From the NCBI RefSeq assembly GCF_000718015.1, contig NZ_JODY01000008.1, forward strand, positions 62,001 through 126,000: 64,000 nt of DNA, given 5' to 3'. Below, piece by piece: positions 48,945 to 62,955 of this stretch. Source of the DNA: Streptomyces catenulae. Its GTDB lineage: Bacteria > Actinomycetota > Actinomycetes > Streptomycetales > Streptomycetaceae. Under the pieces are notes generated by a model, which saw nothing but the letters and a program-made list of their open reading frames with translations, was not told the origin of the DNA and ran no database searches. Numbering within the stretch: the first letter of the stretch is position 1; each line of letters begins with the position of its first letter. A program made the translations under genes and the position numbers.

Positions 48945-49793
48945 TCAGCTTGGCTGCTTCGCTCCCAACACTATGCCGTACCACCAGCCTTCGATGCGAC
49001 GGTATAGGTCGGCGCCTTGCAGGACGCGGATCACCAGGCAGCCTCGATAGTCCCCTTCCGTGTTCTTGCGCACGGTCTTGGGGTTGTGCTTCTTGAGTGC
49101 TGTCTTGCCGAGGGCGGAGACGTCGATTCCGACGAGGTCGGCCCAGTAGCGCTCGGCGGCAGGAGTATCGGCTGACTCGTGAATCATCACGTGGCAGCGC
49201 AGACCCCCTGTCTCGACACCCAACAGCTTCAGCCACGCCAGGTAGACCGTGATCATGTCCGGGTCGCTGTTGACGAATTGCACGCTCTCGCGGCGGGCGT
49301 ACGGCTTGCTCTTGGCGCCCTCGGCCCAGTACAGCCCCACGCCTAGCAGGAACAGTTCCCGGTCCGTGAGCGTCCCGATCTCCTTCGTCGCCGCCGCCTT
49401 CGTCTCCGCCGTCCGTCGGTCGCGTTCCTCGCGGTACGGCGCCCAGCGGGCCTCCCGCATCCGGTGCATCTCTTCCGGTGACTTCGTGGGTTTGGGCAGG
49501 TCGCGGACCCAGAGGGAGACCGAGCTCTTGGAGACGTCCAGCTCGGCGACGATCTCGTCGTAGGTCCGGCCCGCGCGGCGCAGGTCGCGGGCGCGTGCGC
49601 GGAGGTCGTCCTTGGCGTTGGGGCGTTTGGTCCACTCGGGAGGCGGTTCGCCTTCGAGGAGGTCGGTCAGGGTGCCGTCGGCGAGTGGGCCGAGTCGCTC
49701 GCGTATCTGGCGGCGGCTGAGACCGGCGCGGCGGAGGGCGATGGCTTCGGTGCGTGGCGCTGCGTGGCGCTGGTGGGCGCTGTTGTGCGGCAT
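48945..49793 (-). CDS. HTH protein upstream of tRNA-Gln (possible LAGLIDADG-fold relative)
   Basis: 282 aa. Two HTH-like segments come first (RRAGLSRRQIRERLGPLADG and DEIVAELDVSKSSVSLWVRD), the second like a resolvase or sigma-type HTH. The C-terminal part has LFLLGVGLYWAEGAKSK, FVNSDPDMITVYLAWLKLLGV and KHNPKTVRKN, recalling proteins with LAGLIDADG-type endonuclease folds; the catalytic pair is not clear. It ends 26 bp before the tRNA-Gln on the same strand, so they may be co-transcribed. Function unknown. Confidence 0.8.
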   Translation of the reverse strand: MPHNSAHQRHAAPRTEAIALRRAGLSRRQIRERLGPLADGTLTDLLEGEPPPEWTKRPNAKDDLRARARDLRRAGRTYDEIVAELDVSKSSVSLWVRDLPKPTKSPEEMHRMREARWAPYREERDRRTAETKAAATKEIGTLTDRELFLLGVGLYWAEGAKSKPYARRESVQFVNSDPDMITVYLAWLKLLGVETGGLRCHVMIHESADTPAAERYWADLVGIDVSALGKTALKKHNPKTVRKNTEGDYRGCLVIRVLQGADLYRRIEGWWYGIVLGAKQPS

Positions 49794-49948
49794 GGGAACA
49801 GGTTGTCGGTGGTGGGTGTGTGGTCGGGGTGGATATGGGGGCGATTCCTCAGTTCGAGGGATAACCGTGGGTAAGCGTGCGTAACGGGTCGGGAACGTGC
49901 ACGTGCGCTGTTCGGGGGGCCGGGGTGGGCGCCCGTACGCTGGTCGGT

Positions 49949-51406
49949 ATGAGCGCTACGGGGGCAGACGGAGAGGCCGGAGCGCGGGCGTGTCCCGTGC
50001 CCGCGCGGGGGCCGTGGTGGTGGGCCCGGCGGCGCAGTGCCGTGCTGGATGTGGTGCTGGCGTTGCTGTCGACGCTGGAGTGCGTCGTGGAGGGTGCGTC
50101 CTTCTCGGGGGACGTGGGGCTGCCGGAGCCGGTGGGGATGCTGCTGGGGCTGGTGGCCGGGCCGGTGCTGTTGGTGCGTCGGCGGTGGCCGGTGGTCGTG
50201 GTGCTGGTGTCGATCGCGGTGACCCCTGCGGACATGGGGGTGCTGTTGGGGGTGGTGGGTCTCTACACGCTGGCGGCGTCCGACACGCCGCGGCGTACGA
50301 CGGCGTTGTTGGCCGGGATGACGGTGGCGGGCACGTTGGTGTCGACGTTCCTGAATCTGCGGCAGGAGGTGGCGGCGGATCAGGATTATCAGCCGCCGTT
50401 GTGGTTCGTGCCGGTGATGTCGGTGGCGATGGGGCTGGTGGTGACGGCGCCGCCGGTGCTGTGGGGGCTGTACGTGGGTGCCCGGCGGCGGCTGGTGGAG
50501 AGCCTGCGGGAGCGGGCGGACGGTCTGGAGCGTGAGCTGTCGCTGTTGGCGGATCGGGCCGAGGAGCGGGCGGAGTGGGCCCGTAACGAGGAGCGGACGC
50601 GGATCGCGCGGGAGATGCACGACGTGGTGGCGCACCGGGTGTCGCTGATGGTGGTGCATGCCGCGGCGTTGCAGGCGGTGGCGTTGAAGGATCCCGAGAA
50701 GGCGTCGCGGAACGCGGGGCTGGTGGGGGACATGGGGCGCCAGGCGTTGACGGAGTTGCGGGAGATGTTGGGGGTGCTGCGGACGGCGGACGGTTCCGGT
50801 GGGCGTCCGGCGTCGGGGGCGTCGGGTGAGCCGGAGCGGTTGGCGGCGGTGGTGTCCAAGGCGGCGGCGCAGGCGGGGGCGAAGGTGTCGGTGCCGGGTG
50901 TGGTGGCCGAGGAGGCAGGGGGCGGCGAGGCCGAGGGGCCGACGTTGGCGGAGCTGGCGGAGTTGGTGGGTCAGTCGCGGGCGGCGGGTATGGCGGTGGT
51001 GCTGTCGGTGGACGGTGCGGAGGGTGCCGGGGTGCCGGGGCGGTATGCGGCGGGGGTCGAGCAGACCGTGTACCGGGTGGTGCAGGAGGCGCTGACCAAT
51101 GTGCACAAGCATGCGCCGGGGGCGCGGGCGCGGGTGCGGTTGGCGCATCGGGCGGCGGAGGTCGCGGTGCAGGTGGAGAACGGTCCGTCGGACGGTGCGG
51201 CGCCTTCGTCGGGATTGCCGAGCGGGGGGAACGGTCTGGTGGGGATGCGGGAGCGGGTGACGGCGTTGGGCGGGGTGTTCGTGTCCGGTCCGACGGATGC
51301 GGGGGGTTTCCGGGTGTCGGCGGTGGTGCCGGTGGGCGGTGCGGGCGCGTCGCCGGGTGCGGGCGCGGCGTCGGCTTCCGGTGGCGGGGTGGCTGCTGGG
51401 GGGTGA
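49949..51406 (+). CDS. Sensor histidine kinase (NarL/DesK family), orphan
   Basis: 485 aa; ATG 49949. Four or five membrane helices in the first 190 residues sense an unknown signal, then a coiled segment and a HisKA_3 domain: RIAREMHDVVAHRVSLMVVHA with the phosphorylated His at about residue 230, followed by the ATPase part (N-box VQEALTNVHKHA, G-box GNGLVGMRERV). Gly/Ser-rich linkers in the C-terminus are extra. The partner response regulator is not next to it. Divergent from the HTH gene at 48945-49793. Confidence 0.92.
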   Translation: MSATGADGEAGARACPVPARGPWWWARRRSAVLDVVLALLSTLECVVEGASFSGDVGLPEPVGMLLGLVAGPVLLVRRRWPVVVVLVSIAVTPADMGVLLGVVGLYTLAASDTPRRTTALLAGMTVAGTLVSTFLNLRQEVAADQDYQPPLWFVPVMSVAMGLVVTAPPVLWGLYVGARRRLVESLRERADGLERELSLLADRAEERAEWARNEERTRIAREMHDVVAHRVSLMVVHAAALQAVALKDPEKASRNAGLVGDMGRQALTELREMLGVLRTADGSGGRPASGASGEPERLAAVVSKAAAQAGAKVSVPGVVAEEAGGGEAEGPTLAELAELVGQSRAAGMAVVLSVDGAEGAGVPGRYAAGVEQTVYRVVQEALTNVHKHAPGARARVRLAHRAAEVAVQVENGPSDGAAPSSGLPSGGNGLVGMRERVTALGGVFVSGPTDAGGFRVSAVVPVGGAGASPGAGAASASGGGVAAGG

Positions 51407-51725: not shown

Positions 51726-52280
51726 TCAGGCGCTTTCCGGTTCCGGGCGTACCAATCGGGTCGGTCGGGTGCCCAGGATCAGGGTGTTGAGGGCGTGGTC
51801 GATGGTGGGGCCGAGGTACCAGTCGCCGGTGTGGTCGAGGCTGTAGACGCGGCCTTCGGTGTCGATGGCGAGGAGGGCCTGGGGGTGGCCCGCGGTGTGG
51901 GTGCCGCTGAGTTCCTCGCGGCCGAGGGGGGAGACGTCGGTGTCGAGTGCGCGGCCGAGGTCGCCGAGGGTGCGGGCGAGGTGGAGGCCGTGGAGGGGGT
52001 CGATGCTGAAGGGGGTGGGGGCGATGTGGCGGCCGGGGCCCGGGCCGGTGAGGTGGAGGCCGCCGAACTCGGCCCATGCCTCGACGGCGGCGGGGAAGAC
52101 GGTGTGGCGGTGGCCCGCGGGGGAGGTGTGGTCGCGGAGGGTGTCGGCCCAGTGTTCGGCGTGCTTGATGTCCCAGCGGCCGGGGGTCCAGCCGGCTTGC
52201 TGGAGGGCGACGTCGACGGCGGCGGGGAAGCGGGTGGAGCCGGCGCGGTCGCGGGGGTCGGGGGTCTCGGTGGCGGGCAC
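51726..52280 (-). CDS. SUKH-3 family immunity-type protein
   Basis: 184 aa. SUKH-3 features: FPAAVDVALQQAGWTPGRWD at the front, FPAAVEAWAEFGGLHLTGPG in the middle, and SIDPLHGLHLARTLGDLGRAL, matching the family that neutralises toxins in polymorphic systems. GTG 52280 is 8 bp after the deaminase stop, so both lie on one transcript, deaminase first. The whole is a likely toxin-immunity pair. No signal peptide. Confidence 0.88.
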   Translation of the reverse strand: MPATETPDPRDRAGSTRFPAAVDVALQQAGWTPGRWDIKHAEHWADTLRDHTSPAGHRHTVFPAAVEAWAEFGGLHLTGPGPGRHIAPTPFSIDPLHGLHLARTLGDLGRALDTDVSPLGREELSGTHTAGHPQALLAIDTEGRVYSLDHTGDWYLGPTIDHALNTLILGTRPTRLVRPEPESA

Positions 52281-52288
52281 GGTGGTGG

Positions 52289-52801
52289 TCAGCTCCCTGC
52301 GGGGGCGTTGCCGATGGGCATGACGCCGAAGTGGGCGAGGAGCGCGTCGCAGGAGCGGCAGGGGGGTGCGTAGCTGCCGTGCAGGGGGTCGCCGTCCTCG
52401 CGGATGTGACGGGCGGTGATCTTGGAGTGTTTCAGGGAGCGGCGGGCTTCGCCGTTGGTGAGGGGTTTGCGGGAGGCACGTTTGCCGCGGTTGCTCTCGA
52501 CGGCGGTGAGGTGGCGGGAGAGCAGGACGGCTTCGGGGCAGCGGCCGGTGAACCGTTCGCGCTGGGCGGTGGAGAGGGTGTCGAGGAAGTCCTGGACGAG
52601 GGGGTGCAGCGCGGGGGGTTGTTCGGCCTTGCTCGCGGTGCAGGTGAGGGTGGCGCCGCGGACGGAGAGGGCGGCGCCGACGGTGGGGAGGATGCCGTCG
52701 CGGCGGTGGCGGAGCGTGGGGGTGTGCCCGTCGTCGGCGGTTCCGCTCCAGCCGATGCGGGGGTCGCCGGTGGCGGCGGTGTGGTGTGCCGTGGTGCTCA
52801 T
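52289..52801 (-). CDS. YwqJ-related putative deaminase (toxin-type)
   Basis: 170 aa. Zinc-dependent nucleotide/nucleic acid deaminase fold inferred from CPEAV (Cys88-x-Glu90) plus PPCRSC (Cys148, Cys151), the ligand and catalytic set of YwqJ-type deaminases in polymorphic toxins. ATG 52801 has GGGAGGG 8 nt upstream. It directly precedes the SUKH-3 gene. Unlike secreted toxin tips it is a stand-alone protein with no export signal, so it would act inside the cell. Target unknown. Confidence 0.82.
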   Translation of the reverse strand: MSTTAHHTAATGDPRIGWSGTADDGHTPTLRHRRDGILPTVGAALSVRGATLTCTASKAEQPPALHPLVQDFLDTLSTAQRERFTGRCPEAVLLSRHLTAVESNRGKRASRKPLTNGEARRSLKHSKITARHIREDGDPLHGSYAPPCRSCDALLAHFGVMPIGNAPAGS

Positions 52802-53094
52802 GTGGTGCTTCCCTCCCTGCAAACCCCCCGGTTGCGGGGGTCAGCCTGCCAAATGTCCCGGGTGTTCCGGTAGTCGGGCATGCCGTGGAGGGCGTCACGG
52901 GCGGGTGACAGCGTGTTGCGGGTGGGGTAAGTGGGCTGGCCGGGGCGGGTGTGATGGGTGGGGCGTGGCGGAGCGGGTGGTGGTGTTTGTAGGGGGTCGG
53001 TGGGGTGGTGTGGAGGGCGTCCGGTACCTGCGGTGCCCCTTGCGGTACGGCATAGGCTGTGCGCAGTAGCCAGATTCAGCCAGGGGGCACCGCG
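52802..53094. promoter_or_regulatory. Divergent promoter region of the toxin/immunity cluster
   Basis: 293-bp gap between the deaminase start and the WHH-SUKH start. A short hairpin CCCCCGGTTGCGGGGG is near 52826-52843. No gene seen. Both operons must start here. Confidence 0.4.
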
Positions 53095-54072
53095 ATGACG
53101 ACAGGTCGGCTCGGGCAGCATGCCGCGCCACCGAACACCGCTTATGCCGGGCAGGTCGTGCATTTCCCGGATCCGGTCCGTGCCGCCCGGCACCCGGCGG
53201 GGGTGCGGATGGACGGGCGGGGTTTCCCGTCGTTCACGCCGTATGCGCGGGCTGCCGTGGAGATCGCCGAGCCGCCGGAGGGGTTCGGCGTGGACGAGCT
53301 GCGGCTGACGGACTATGTGTCGGCGAACGCGGCGATGCATGCGCGGCGGCACGAGTTGTGGGCGGACGGTCCGGCGGTGGCGACGCCGCACGGTTGGACG
53401 TGGCACCACGTGGCGGGCACCCGGCGGTTGGAGTTGGTGCCGGTCGAGGTGAAGGCGTTGCTGCGGCACCACGGTGGGCTGGCGACGGCGGCGGTGGCGC
53501 ACGACAAGCGTGGCACCCGTCCGTTGCAGGAGACGCGTCCGGTGCATTTCGGGTTGGCGCACCGGGGGATCTCGGTGGGTGAGGAGCAGGTGGCGCAGGC
53601 GGAGGAGGCGCTGGGTTACCGGCTGCCGGGTGCGTACCGGTCGTTCCTGAAGGCGGCGGGGGGCTGTGCGCCGGTGGGGGTGGGGCTGGACGCGGAGTTG
53701 GGGCTGCTGGTGGATCAGCCGTTCTTCACGGTGCGTGACGACGCGGCGGTGAACGATCTGGTCTATGTCAACAAGTGTCTCCGTGATCACCTGACCAAGG
53801 ACTATCTGGGCGTGGCGTTCGCGCAGGGCGGGTTGCTCGCGGTGAAGGTGCGGGGAGCCGACCTCGGTTCGGTGTGGTTCTGCCCGTACGACGATGCGCG
53901 GGACCGTGACGGGTGGACGGTGCAGGAGCGGGTGGAGCGGCTGCTGTTGCCGTGCGGGGCGGATTTCGATGCGTTCCTGGAGCGGCTGGCGGGGAATCCG
54001 CCGGAGCTGGAGACGGTGGCGAATCTGATGGTGGACGGTGGCTTCGCGCAGGTCGTCCCGGTGGAGGGGTGA
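53095..54072 (+). CDS. WHH-type HNH nuclease domain fused to a SUKH (SMI1/KNR4) domain
   Basis: 325 aa. The N-terminal half ends in GWTWHHVAGTRRLELVP (W103-H104-H105) and RHHGG at 124-128, the signature of the WHH group of the HNH/ENDO VII toxin superfamily. From about residue 165 a SUKH domain follows (EEALGYRLPGAYRSFLKAAGG, then WFCPYDDARD). So a predicted nuclease and an immunity-type domain share one chain. ATG 53095 follows CAGGGGG. Coupled to the next gene. Whether the nuclease is active is unknown. Confidence 0.82.
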   Translation: MTTGRLGQHAAPPNTAYAGQVVHFPDPVRAARHPAGVRMDGRGFPSFTPYARAAVEIAEPPEGFGVDELRLTDYVSANAAMHARRHELWADGPAVATPHGWTWHHVAGTRRLELVPVEVKALLRHHGGLATAAVAHDKRGTRPLQETRPVHFGLAHRGISVGEEQVAQAEEALGYRLPGAYRSFLKAAGGCAPVGVGLDAELGLLVDQPFFTVRDDAAVNDLVYVNKCLRDHLTKDYLGVAFAQGGLLAVKVRGADLGSVWFCPYDDARDRDGWTVQERVERLLLPCGADFDAFLERLAGNPPELETVANLMVDGGFAQVVPVEG

Positions 54073-54077
54073 GCGCG

Positions 54078-56735
54078 GTGGTGACGTTCGCGCAGGCGCA
54101 GGAGCGTGCGGAGCTGTGGGTCAACGGCGACGTACCGGCGCAGCTCCAGCGTGAGGTGCGGGTGCGGGAGTTCGACCTCGGGTTCGTCGCGTGGGCGGAG
54201 GACCGGGAGGACGGTCCGCGGTCCGACGGGGGGCGGAGCCGGTTGGTGATCGCGCGGGACAGCGGTGAGACGACGCTGTGGCCGGGGTTGCCGGTGGGTG
54301 AGGTGATCCGGCGGTACGAGGAGGAGTACGGCGCGGCGGCGGCGCGTCCGGCGGCGGTGTCGGCGGCGCCGCGGATCGATCTGGAGGCGACGTCGTTCCT
54401 GCTGACGCCGCCGGAGTGGTTGCAGGAGGCGGCGGACGCGCGTGCCGAGGCGTCGGGTGGAGCGGCTGCCGCGCCGCCTGCTCCGGCTGCTCCGGCGCCC
54501 GCGGTCGGTGGTGACGGTGCGGCCGATGCGTGGGCCGGGGTGAATGTGACGCCGGGGGCCGAGGGCGGTCCGGGGGCGGCGGAGGGCGACGACCGGTCGG
54601 TGGCGCCGCCGCAGACGGTGTTCGCGCCGCCGTTGGCCGGTCTGGACGAGGTCGGCGAGGAGGACGGGGCGGACACCGCCGCGCGGCGGAGCAGTCCCGA
54701 GGCGAAGACCCAGTTGTTGCAGGGTGGCAGTCAGTTGCCGCCGACGCAGGTGACTCCGGCGCTGGAGCGGGAGGCGCCCGCCGGTGCGCCGTCGGCCGAT
54801 GGTGCGTCAGGTGCAACCGCCGGTGGGTCCGGTGCCGGTTCCGCTGGTGCCGCGCCGGTGCCGCCGATGCCTCCGGCGCCGCCCGTGGGGCCGGGGTGGG
54901 CGGATCTGCCGCCGCCGTCGGGTCCGCCGGTCGCCGAGGTGCCGCCGCCGCAGGGCGCCACGCCCGCCGCGTCCGGCCCGCCCGCGCCGCCCGCCACGGG
55001 CGGGGTGCACGCGGCGGCGACGGTGTTGGCCGCCGGTGCCGCGGTGCCCGCCGAGGCGGCGGTTCCGCCGCCGCCCCCGGGGGTGCCGGGTGCGGAGAAG
55101 GCGGCGTCCGGCGGTGCGGGTGCGCCCGCCGGTGGTTACGTACCGACGCAGTTGGTCTCGCAGTTGGACGGTGACGGGCTCGATCTGAGCGCGGTGGACG
55201 GTGCCGACGGGGCGTCCGGTGGCGCCGGTTCCGGTGCGTCCGGCGGTGGGGTGCACGCGGCGGCGACGATGCTGGCGTCGGGTGCCGCGCTGCCCGATCC
55301 GGCGACCGGTGGCCCCGGTGCGGGTGGTCCCGCCGTACCGCCGCCGCCCGGTCCGCCCGGTGCGCCGAAGGGTGCCGGTGGCGCCAAGTCCGGTGCGGCG
55401 GGCGGGAGTTCGGGGGCGAGCCCGGACGGTCCGCCGCCGCCTCCGCCGCCGGTGCCCGCGGTCGGTGGCGCCGGGGGCGGGGTGCACGCGGCGGCGACGA
55501 TGCTGGCCTCCGGCGCGGCGGCGCCCGGCCCGGGTGCGTCCGGCCCGGCGGCTCCCGGCGCGCCGCAGGGCGCCGGTCCGGCCGCGCCGCCGCCCGCCCC
55601 GCCGCAGGCTCCCGGCCCCGTCGCTCCGCCGCAGGCTCCCGGCCCCGCGGCCCCGCCGCAGGCCGCGCCCCCGCAGGCCGCACCCCCGCAGGGTGCACCC
55701 CCGCAGGGTGCTCCCGGTGGCTACGGGTATCCGCCGGCGCCGGGCGGGGTGCCGACGGTCGGGCCCGGGTACATGGCGGTGCTCAGCTACCGCGCGCCGG
55801 ACGGGTCCGAGCAGAAGATCGTGCGCCGGTCGGCGCCCGGTACGCCGCATCCGGAGTGGCAGCTCCTGCACGAGCTGCGGGGGATGAACATCCCGCCGCA
55901 GCAGGTGCTGGAGCTCCACACCGAGCTGGAGAGCTGTGAGGTGCCGGGCGGCTACTGCGCCCGGCTGGTCCGGGACACCTGGCCGCAGGTGCGGATCAGC
56001 CACACCGCCGCGTACGGCCGCGACCACGCCTCGCGGCAGCAGGGCGTCCGTCATCTCGTCGAGCACCAGGGCGAGTTGCACCAGGTGGCGGACGGTCCGG
56101 CGCGGCCCGCTCCGGTGCGGGCGCCGCTGCCGCACCCCTCGCAGGTGCAGCCGGTGCCCCCGGCGCCGCCGCAGGTCGTCGGGCAGGAGCTGGAGCAGGC
56201 GTTCGGCCCGCAGGCGCTGTTCCGCTTCGACCAGCGGGCGGTCTCCCGGCAGGGCGTGCCGGAGGTCGTCGCGCAGATGCTGGTCTGGGCGGGGCTGCCG
56301 GTCGACTTCGGGCCGTTCTTCTGGGCGCAGGCGCAGCCGGGCCGCCCGGTGCCGACGCTGGCGGAGCTGGCGGCGGAGCGCGGGGTGCAGCCGTCCGCCG
56401 ACGCGGGCTCGTATCTGGTGATGGGGAACGACTACGGGCGGCAGCTGTGTGTGCAGTACGGCACGGCGCACCTCGTGGCGGTGCCGCTGGAGGGGGTGCC
56501 CGGTGGGCAGCCCGCCCCGGCGCAGTTCGTCAACAGCGGGCTGCCGGAGTTCACGCGCTGCCTGGCGATGCTGGGCCGGATGTGGCGGCTGCGGTACGGG
56601 CTGACCCCGGAGCAGGCGGGTCGCTGGACGGTCGATTTCCAGGCGCAGCTGGTGGCGCTCGACCCGGCGGCGCTCGGTTCGCCGGAGACGTGGTGGTCGG
56701 TGCTGCTGGAGCAGATGTGGGACGGGCTGCTGTAG
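54078..56735 (+). CDS. Deaminase-domain protein fused to SUKH-4 via a repeat-rich linker
   Basis: About 885 aa. An N-terminal domain (TFAQAQERAELWVNGDVPAQL, about 120 residues) is followed by about 420 residues of Ala/Gly/Pro-rich linker with three VHAAAT[VM]LA motifs near residues 310, 392 and 469. Next comes a deaminase-like domain: HPEW (His591-x-Glu593) and CEVPGGYC (Cys620, Cys627). SUKH-4 forms the C-terminus (FVNSGLPEFTRCLAMLGRMW). GTG 54078 is 8 nt after GGAGGGG. Known Streptomyces proteins with this layout are annotated SUKH-4 immunity proteins. Toxin activity is inferred. Confidence 0.85.
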   Translation: MVTFAQAQERAELWVNGDVPAQLQREVRVREFDLGFVAWAEDREDGPRSDGGRSRLVIARDSGETTLWPGLPVGEVIRRYEEEYGAAAARPAAVSAAPRIDLEATSFLLTPPEWLQEAADARAEASGGAAAAPPAPAAPAPAVGGDGAADAWAGVNVTPGAEGGPGAAEGDDRSVAPPQTVFAPPLAGLDEVGEEDGADTAARRSSPEAKTQLLQGGSQLPPTQVTPALEREAPAGAPSADGASGATAGGSGAGSAGAAPVPPMPPAPPVGPGWADLPPPSGPPVAEVPPPQGATPAASGPPAPPATGGVHAAATVLAAGAAVPAEAAVPPPPPGVPGAEKAASGGAGAPAGGYVPTQLVSQLDGDGLDLSAVDGADGASGGAGSGASGGGVHAAATMLASGAALPDPATGGPGAGGPAVPPPPGPPGAPKGAGGAKSGAAGGSSGASPDGPPPPPPPVPAVGGAGGGVHAAATMLASGAAAPGPGASGPAAPGAPQGAGPAAPPPAPPQAPGPVAPPQAPGPAAPPQAAPPQAAPPQGAPPQGAPGGYGYPPAPGGVPTVGPGYMAVLSYRAPDGSEQKIVRRSAPGTPHPEWQLLHELRGMNIPPQQVLELHTELESCEVPGGYCARLVRDTWPQVRISHTAAYGRDHASRQQGVRHLVEHQGELHQVADGPARPAPVRAPLPHPSQVQPVPPAPPQVVGQELEQAFGPQALFRFDQRAVSRQGVPEVVAQMLVWAGLPVDFGPFFWAQAQPGRPVPTLAELAAERGVQPSADAGSYLVMGNDYGRQLCVQYGTAHLVAVPLEGVPGGQPAPAQFVNSGLPEFTRCLAMLGRMWRLRYGLTPEQAGRWTVDFQAQLVALDPAALGSPETWWSVLLEQMWDGLL

Positions 56736-59406: not shown

Positions 59407-62955
<3,549 letters not shown>

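Follow-up and report, generated by a model that had tools for sequence, protein, structure and literature searches.

In a 64,000-nt stretch of DNA from Streptomyces catenulae (assembly GCF_000718015.1, contig NZ_JODY01000008.1, positions 62,001-126,000, forward strand), called the window below, four adjacent genes at 51726-56735 encode deaminase- and nuclease-type enzyme domains together with SUKH proteins. The genes form two divergent pairs, with B and A on the minus strand and C and D on the plus strand. We propose that this cluster consists of domesticated toxin-type enzymes, an intracellular set paired with SUKH partners that was fixed early in the Streptomycetaceae and has been inherited mostly vertically; we give this reading about an even chance. 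The enzymes of the cluster are probably still active, as judged from their conserved residues. The protein families were already known, and the fixed, export-less core set with conserved active sites is what appears to be new as far as the searches go: literature searches with short lists of terms, by which subscription papers were mostly uncovered, found no paper on such a core set.

Conservation of the four-gene cluster

Gene B (51726-52280, minus strand, GTG start) encodes a SUKH-3 protein of 184 amino acids (aa) (PF14433, E = 1.5e-52). Gene A (52289-52801, minus strand), which lies upstream of B on the same strand with a spacing of 8 bp, encodes a stand-alone YwqJ-type deaminase of 170 aa (PF14431, E = 4.4e-29). 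On the other side, gene C (53095-54072, plus strand) encodes a WHH-type HNH nuclease (about aa 39-133; PF14414, E = 7.8e-15; PF12639 Colicin-DNase, E = 5.2e-9) fused to a SUKH-1 domain (aa 163-296; PF09346, E = 9e-11). The start of gene D (54069-56735, plus strand, GTG start) overlaps the stop of C by 4 nt. Its product of 888 aa consists of an N-terminal domain (Dn), a long linker, an XOO_2897-type deaminase domain (55761-56066, plus strand; PF14440, E = 4.4e-36) with an HPE ... C ... C motif, and a SUKH-4 domain (56181-56714, plus strand; PF14435, E = 3.3e-49). All the named domains scored above the Pfam cut-offs, and the matches to the SUKH-1, SUKH-3 and SUKH-4 profiles place B, C and D in the SUKH superfamily. 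The zinc deaminase signature is [HC]xE plus two cysteines; A (YwqJ) and D (XOO_2897) were assigned to this superfamily by profile together with the signature, and the deaminase-fold matches of the D domain were weak, as was the predicted structure of D itself. C contains the WHH, L, H and HxG residues of the WHH clade of HNH/EndoVII nucleases. The original prediction, which was made from the letters alone, had described four adjacent genes, two of them carrying toxin-type domains on one chain with presumed antidotes; the coordinates, strands and domain calls all hold, including the profile matches for the deaminases and the WHH nuclease and the fusions in C (SUKH-1) and D (SUKH-4).

It had also claimed that the proteins lack an export signal. 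In agreement with this, no export domain was found in A-D by Pfam, with no WXG100 or LXG domain among the matches, and none of the four has a hydrophobic leader, the highest 19-residue mean hydropathy being 1.40. Nor was a DNA-binding Pfam domain found in the four proteins, as an autoregulating type II antitoxin would carry; such a domain is found in many type II antitoxins, though not in all. NCBIfam gave no match for the four proteins, and PADLOC matched 0 of 4 at E <= 1. Public records name such proteins by domain, as 'YwqJ-related putative deaminase', 'SMI1/KNR4 family protein' or 'HNH endonuclease', and 'SUKH-4 family immunity protein'.

The predicted active sites were then compared across orthologues. 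In A, the putative zinc or catalytic residues C88, E90, C148 and C151 were invariant in 48 of 48 aligned sequences. The residues W103, H104, H105, L114, H125, H126 and G128 of C were invariant in all 53 family sequences, and the H, E, C and C of the D deaminase in all 50 aligned sequences. These counts include the window; the divergent sequences of loci L072, L085, L127, L124 and L125 were tallied apart, and those of L126, L128 and L129 were left out of the alignments. The conservation of catalytic residues on which the original prediction depended is therefore observed in all three enzymes. The ratio of nonsynonymous to synonymous substitution rates (dN/dS), estimated in the style of Nei and Gojobori and rough for GC-rich DNA, had medians of 0.078 for the D deaminase (one zero-value pair omitted; 0.054 with that pair counted), 0.140 for SUKH-4, 0.153 for C, 0.195 for A, 0.225 for Dn and 0.316 for B, compared with 0.165 for glmU, 0.151 for mfd and 0.359 for the kinase gene. 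These results show that the constraint on the cluster is housekeeping-like, and no more than that.

To describe the distribution of the genes, 150 genomes of the genus, 150 of the family and class-wide samples of 296 (for C) and 393 (for A) genomes were used. Within the genus, A was present in 142 of 150 genomes, with two weak matches (G013 and G136), and C in 141 of 150, mostly in single copy. Within the family, A was found in 149 of 150 genomes, a count that includes G273, a possible paralogue with only 39% identity in its best match. C was found in 145 of 150; because three of these matches are divergent toxin-island copies of genus g5, core-type C amounts to 142 of 150 genomes and 15 of 17 genera. 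Across the class, 35 of 296 genomes contained C; 31 belong to the same genus and four to other families, the latter with partial matches of 37-50% identity. A was found in 48 of 393 genomes, 44 in the same genus and four weakly elsewhere. Among the nine genus genomes without C, seven have at least 640 contigs, and seven give a D-type match (E <= 1e-20), which in three cases lies no more than 320 bases from a contig start; G127 and G144 have none of A, C and a D-type match. Among the best 80 of 557 relatives of D, those with names include Streptantibioticus, Actinacidiphila and Wenjunlia besides many Streptomyces. A search of 50,697 phage records gave no relatives of A, of C or of the C-terminal part of D, and plasmid records with relatives were few (one for A, five for C and four for D), all below 60% identity. 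Two orthologues have inner stop codons, a TGA in C (G116:C445) and a TAA in A (G254:C36), and are possibly pseudogenes or sequencing errors.

Gene order was conserved as well. Sixty loci were fetched, of which 52 are core loci. The N-terminal part of D starts 0-92 bp past the C match in all 52, and in 47 the fetched stretch also contains A and B, divergent from C and upstream of it, with an A-B gap below 200 bp in 46. In the other five, A is about 5-27 kb away, also divergent, and B was beside it in the three that were fetched. The deaminase and SUKH-4 domains of D were both detected in 49 of the 52 loci, the exceptions being two early contig ends and one run of N. The original prediction had placed the genes in the core chromosome, and their near-universal, syntenic occurrence in the genus and family samples confirms this.

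Relatives in toxin loci

In locus L224, a protein of 572 aa with a WXG100_2 domain and a YwqJ tip is followed by SUKH-3 and by further YwqJ and SUKH-3 cassettes, and L226 contains a WXG100_2 protein with a YwqJ tip like that of L224. Loci L223-L228, from several Streptomyces genomes, hold short arrays of alternating YwqJ and SUKH-3, resembling strings of toxin-immunity cassettes. L072 encodes a protein of 1271 aa with two Gln_amidase stretches and WHH at its end; next come a C-like gene and then A and B, all on one strand. The genome of S. catenulae itself has a type VII locus on contig C1 (L237, C1:252000-271999) with EccD, a WXG100_2-Gln_amidase-XOO_2897 protein of 2312 aa, a WXG100-like protein below the cut-off, and a protein of 443 aa, D2, which consists of Dn, XOO_2897 and SUKH-4. 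The same locus holds a SUKH-4 protein of 742 aa and a stand-alone Dn-like protein of 103 aa. The open reading frames of the toxin-type loci came from a simple gene finder, and their starts are therefore uncertain.

D2-type proteins occur in 18 of the 150 genus genomes. Both zinc cysteines were replaced in all 18 fetched loci; the His was lost in 15 and the Glu in none. No such loss of zinc ligands was seen in core D among the 50 aligned sequences. Since D2 lacks the zinc cysteines in the same architecture, the intact site of core D is not merely an inherited shape. The simplest reading of the D2 sequences is a non-catalytic role, probably in immunity, and core D appears to have been retained as an enzyme. 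The shared N-terminal domain Dn (54069-54413, plus strand in the window) belongs to no Pfam family and did not match PF15567 (Imm35). By hhalign it is homologous to the N-terminus of D2 (probability 99.3) and, more weakly, to the 103-aa protein of the type VII locus (95.9). D2-type proteins, whose type of locus is taken from the S. catenulae genome only, have the domain order of D and a homologous Dn, but differ from D in the lost cysteines and in having no long linker.

With polymorphic toxin systems that use YwqJ, WHH or XOO_2897 tips and SUKH immunity, the cluster has in common the enzyme and SUKH families and the order YwqJ-SUKH-3. Those systems place an export or trafficking domain at the N-terminus and the toxin at the C-terminus, whereas here the enzyme of A stands alone, the nuclease of C comes first, and the deaminase of D is internal. 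Moreover, they diversify rapidly and are patchy, whereas the cluster shows little diversification, occupies one fixed place and is near-universal in the family. Their immunity gene lies beside the toxin gene; B adjoins A in the same way, but C and D carry their SUKH domains in fusion. CapRel also has an enzyme and a putative inhibitor on one chain, as C and D do, and its families are presumably unrelated to theirs. It is described as an anti-phage protein with a known trigger in the available text of PMC9712102, whereas the cluster has no phage link. DddA and SsdA belong to other deaminase subfamilies and are delivered between cells; in a term search made for this comparison, YwqJ and XOO were absent from the available text of PMC7901873.

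Promoter region, linker and neighbouring genes

A putative divergent promoter region of 293 bp (52802-53094) separates A and C. On the A side it contains the element CTGCCAAATG (52846-52855, minus strand); the pattern CTGYCAAAYR was present in 21 of 40 regions against 0.04 expected. On the C side, TAGGCT (53053-53058, plus strand) is a putative -10 box of the C-D operon, and in 36 of the 40 regions TAG[GT]CT occurred no more than 130 nt upstream of C, against 1.08 expected. Both expectations come from base shuffles, a weak control because the intergenic regions are related, and the counts cover those 40 of 54 sequences (the window and 53 family loci) in which the A-C distance is 100-700 bp. 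In keeping with Streptomyces promoters in general, we take TAGGCT to be a probable housekeeping -10 box. The two kept elements suggest steady expression.

The low-complexity Pro/Gly/Ala linker of D (54414-55760, plus strand) contains short motifs that are conserved in the alignment, namely DLEATSFLLTPPEWLQEAAD, EAKTELL, GGYVPTQLVS and the repeated GVHAAATMLADGA. Of 121 D proteins, 116 contain one or more matches to a loose HAA pattern, some few of which are unrelated. Repeats of the GVHAAATMLADGA type and TQL/TEL motifs are kept within this otherwise low-complexity part. It is possible that the linker motifs are docking sites for a trigger or phospho-threonine sites.

In the window, the cluster is flanked by a HisKA_3 sensor kinase gene and glmU on one side, and by genes for an LCP protein, a Pfam-less open reading frame and mfd on the other. 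The kinase gene (49877-51406 as listed, plus strand; HisKA_3, E = 1.4e-17) is a conserved neighbour, which was matched in 42 of the 52 core loci and in 37 of them lies upstream of B on the strand of C. By gene order, we infer that it corresponds to SCO3119. If this identity holds, it is an orphan kinase, and the available text of PMC13170358 gives it as a possible AtrA target under negative regulation. A helix-turn-helix protein (48945-49793; PF13384, E = 3.6e-6) is encoded between glmU and the kinase gene. The transcription-repair coupling factor gene mfd (59407-62955, plus strand; TRCF, CarD_TRCF_RID and other domains) fell inside the fetched stretch in 19 of the 52 core loci and stands outside the system as far as the evidence goes. 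A scan of six neighbours in the window revealed no secretion gene.

Competing explanations and meaning

The domestication reading would work as follows. Modules of YwqJ-SUKH-3, WHH-SUKH-1 and XOO_2897-SUKH-4, kin to loci of secreted polymorphic toxins, would have become fixed at one chromosomal place; the relatives of two of the three modules appear to be of the type VII (WXG100/ESX) kind. The proteins would remain in the cytoplasm, where each enzyme would be held by its SUKH partner, A by B in trans and C and D in cis. A signal, perhaps received through Dn and the linker motifs of D, would free or aim the enzymes, which may then act on nucleic acids or nucleotides in stress or development. 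We infer the cytoplasmic location, the SUKH inhibition, the activity, the release and the direction of descent. The SUKH domains are likely locks because such domains are known beside toxins of this type and at times fused to them: the toxins associated with SUKH proteins include YwqJ, XOO2897 and WHH according to the available text of PMC3482391. Family knowledge and the recurring pairing suggest that each SUKH domain would serve as the antidote of the adjoining enzyme. As for possible substrates, YwqJ of B. subtilis arrests growth, with neither the chromosome nor rRNA visibly affected, and 'may act on small molecules' (available text of PMC8321402), and other deaminase toxins are reported to mutate DNA (available text of PMC7901873).

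Several observations weigh against this reading. The descent from toxin locus to core would have to be drawn from an unrooted comparison. The toxin of L072 has no WXG100 domain by Pfam, and C therefore has no established type VII link. Outside the core set, the catalytic Glu of A is replaced by Asp in L072, L085 and L127, the g5 island copies beside divergent C, and the first His of WHH is gone in L124 and L125, C relatives from outside the family; an invariant active site can, moreover, also preserve the fold or the binding of a partner, although D2 retains the architecture with its zinc ligands gone. The dN/dS medians were taken over unlike sets of pairs, five for glmU and mfd and up to nine for the others, and over shared pairs the D deaminase lay below mfd in five of five and below glmU in just three of five. 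Among the four genes, constraint is weakest in B, with values up to 0.599, which fits an evolving immunity protein. That cluster identities track those of mfd is as expected from mainly vertical descent; the tracking is only moderate (Spearman 0.37-0.80, pairwise comparison). Furthermore, the three genomes of genus g2 all have A-B with no C match, so that the four genes need not form a single system. In these three and in one g5 genome, A-B have about 50% identity and lie a few kb from glmU, with pth-like and prs-like genes (named by eye) in between and C absent from the stretch; A-B may therefore be the older part of the cluster.

The pattern in B and D2 would also suit a standing immunity, to which we assign a lesser but real chance. 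In that case SUKH-3, SUKH-1 and SUKH-4 would be a fixed store of antidotes against delivered deaminase and nuclease toxins, and the fused enzyme domains would aid only recognition or dimerisation. SUKH proteins do occur in polyimmunity loci and with YwqJ, XOO2897 and WHH toxins in the available text of PMC3482391; D2, with its deaminase site lost and an XOO_2897 protein beside it in a type VII locus, is the form expected of immunity only; and B outpaces the enzymes in evolution by median dN/dS. However, an active site would be needless for this role, yet the core copies retain every catalytic residue examined, and A consists of one entire enzyme domain, standing alone, and is no immunity protein.

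The near-universal and mostly single-copy occurrence, the constraint about like that of glmU and mfd, and the putative housekeeping-like -10 element that precedes C in 36 of the 40 regions raise the possibility of a housekeeping function. A and D would then serve ordinary metabolism by acting on free nucleotides, on nucleosides or on one fixed site in RNA, and C by acting on a structured nucleic acid, with the SUKH domains as scaffolds, and the proposed small-molecule activity of B. subtilis YwqJ (available text of PMC8321402) would fit. We consider this unlikely: the enzyme domains have toxin tips as relatives, all three enzyme families are paired with SUKH, and nearly all other sampled genomes of the class are without the cluster, which would be odd for basic metabolism.

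The proteins might also be effectors exported by type VII or contractile injection delivery through a signal invisible to Pfam. Injection-system cargo can go without classical signals, some relatives have WXG100_2 domains, and the genome has an EccD-containing locus. But the proteins lack WXG100 and LXG domains and hydrophobic leaders, none of the six scanned neighbours is a secretion gene, and an effector with its antidote on the same chain would be disarmed, which makes export very improbable. Defence genes are usually patchy and mobile. An anti-phage function of the fused toxin-antitoxin type, as in CapRel, which is activated by a phage capsid protein (available text of PMC9712102) and whose fused enzyme-antidote layout is shared by C and D, has hardly any likelihood in our view, with no PADLOC match, no relatives in the phage records, few and distant plasmid relatives, and a cluster that is near-universal and syntenic, not patchy. 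The original idea of an intracellular system for defence or nucleotide control is thus supported in part: the core-chromosomal group of toxin-type enzymes, in which no export signal is recognisable, holds, whereas the role in defence finds no support. For nucleotide control, the results speak neither in favour nor against.

A bolder form of the domestication reading, which we regard as a rather unlikely speculation, is that interbacterial deaminase and nuclease toxins were permanently made over into enzymes that edit or execute inside the cell, under SUKH locks in cis and in the service of the multicellular life cycle, either in programmed hyphal death or in controlled editing or mutagenesis of the cell's own nucleic acid. 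Iyer et al. reportedly proposed in 2011 that AID/APOBEC-type enzymes stem from toxins; if the bolder form is true, the cluster would be a bacterial counterpart to that proposed origin. Such domains have been known mainly from the tips of accessory toxins, and the retention of three such enzymes in the core genome of a whole bacterial family, with active sites intact and SUKH domains fused or adjoining, would point to a resident function for weapon domains. The cluster offers a testable model of toxin domestication, in which D and D2, alike in architecture, would provide a natural comparison between an active site that was kept and one that was lost.

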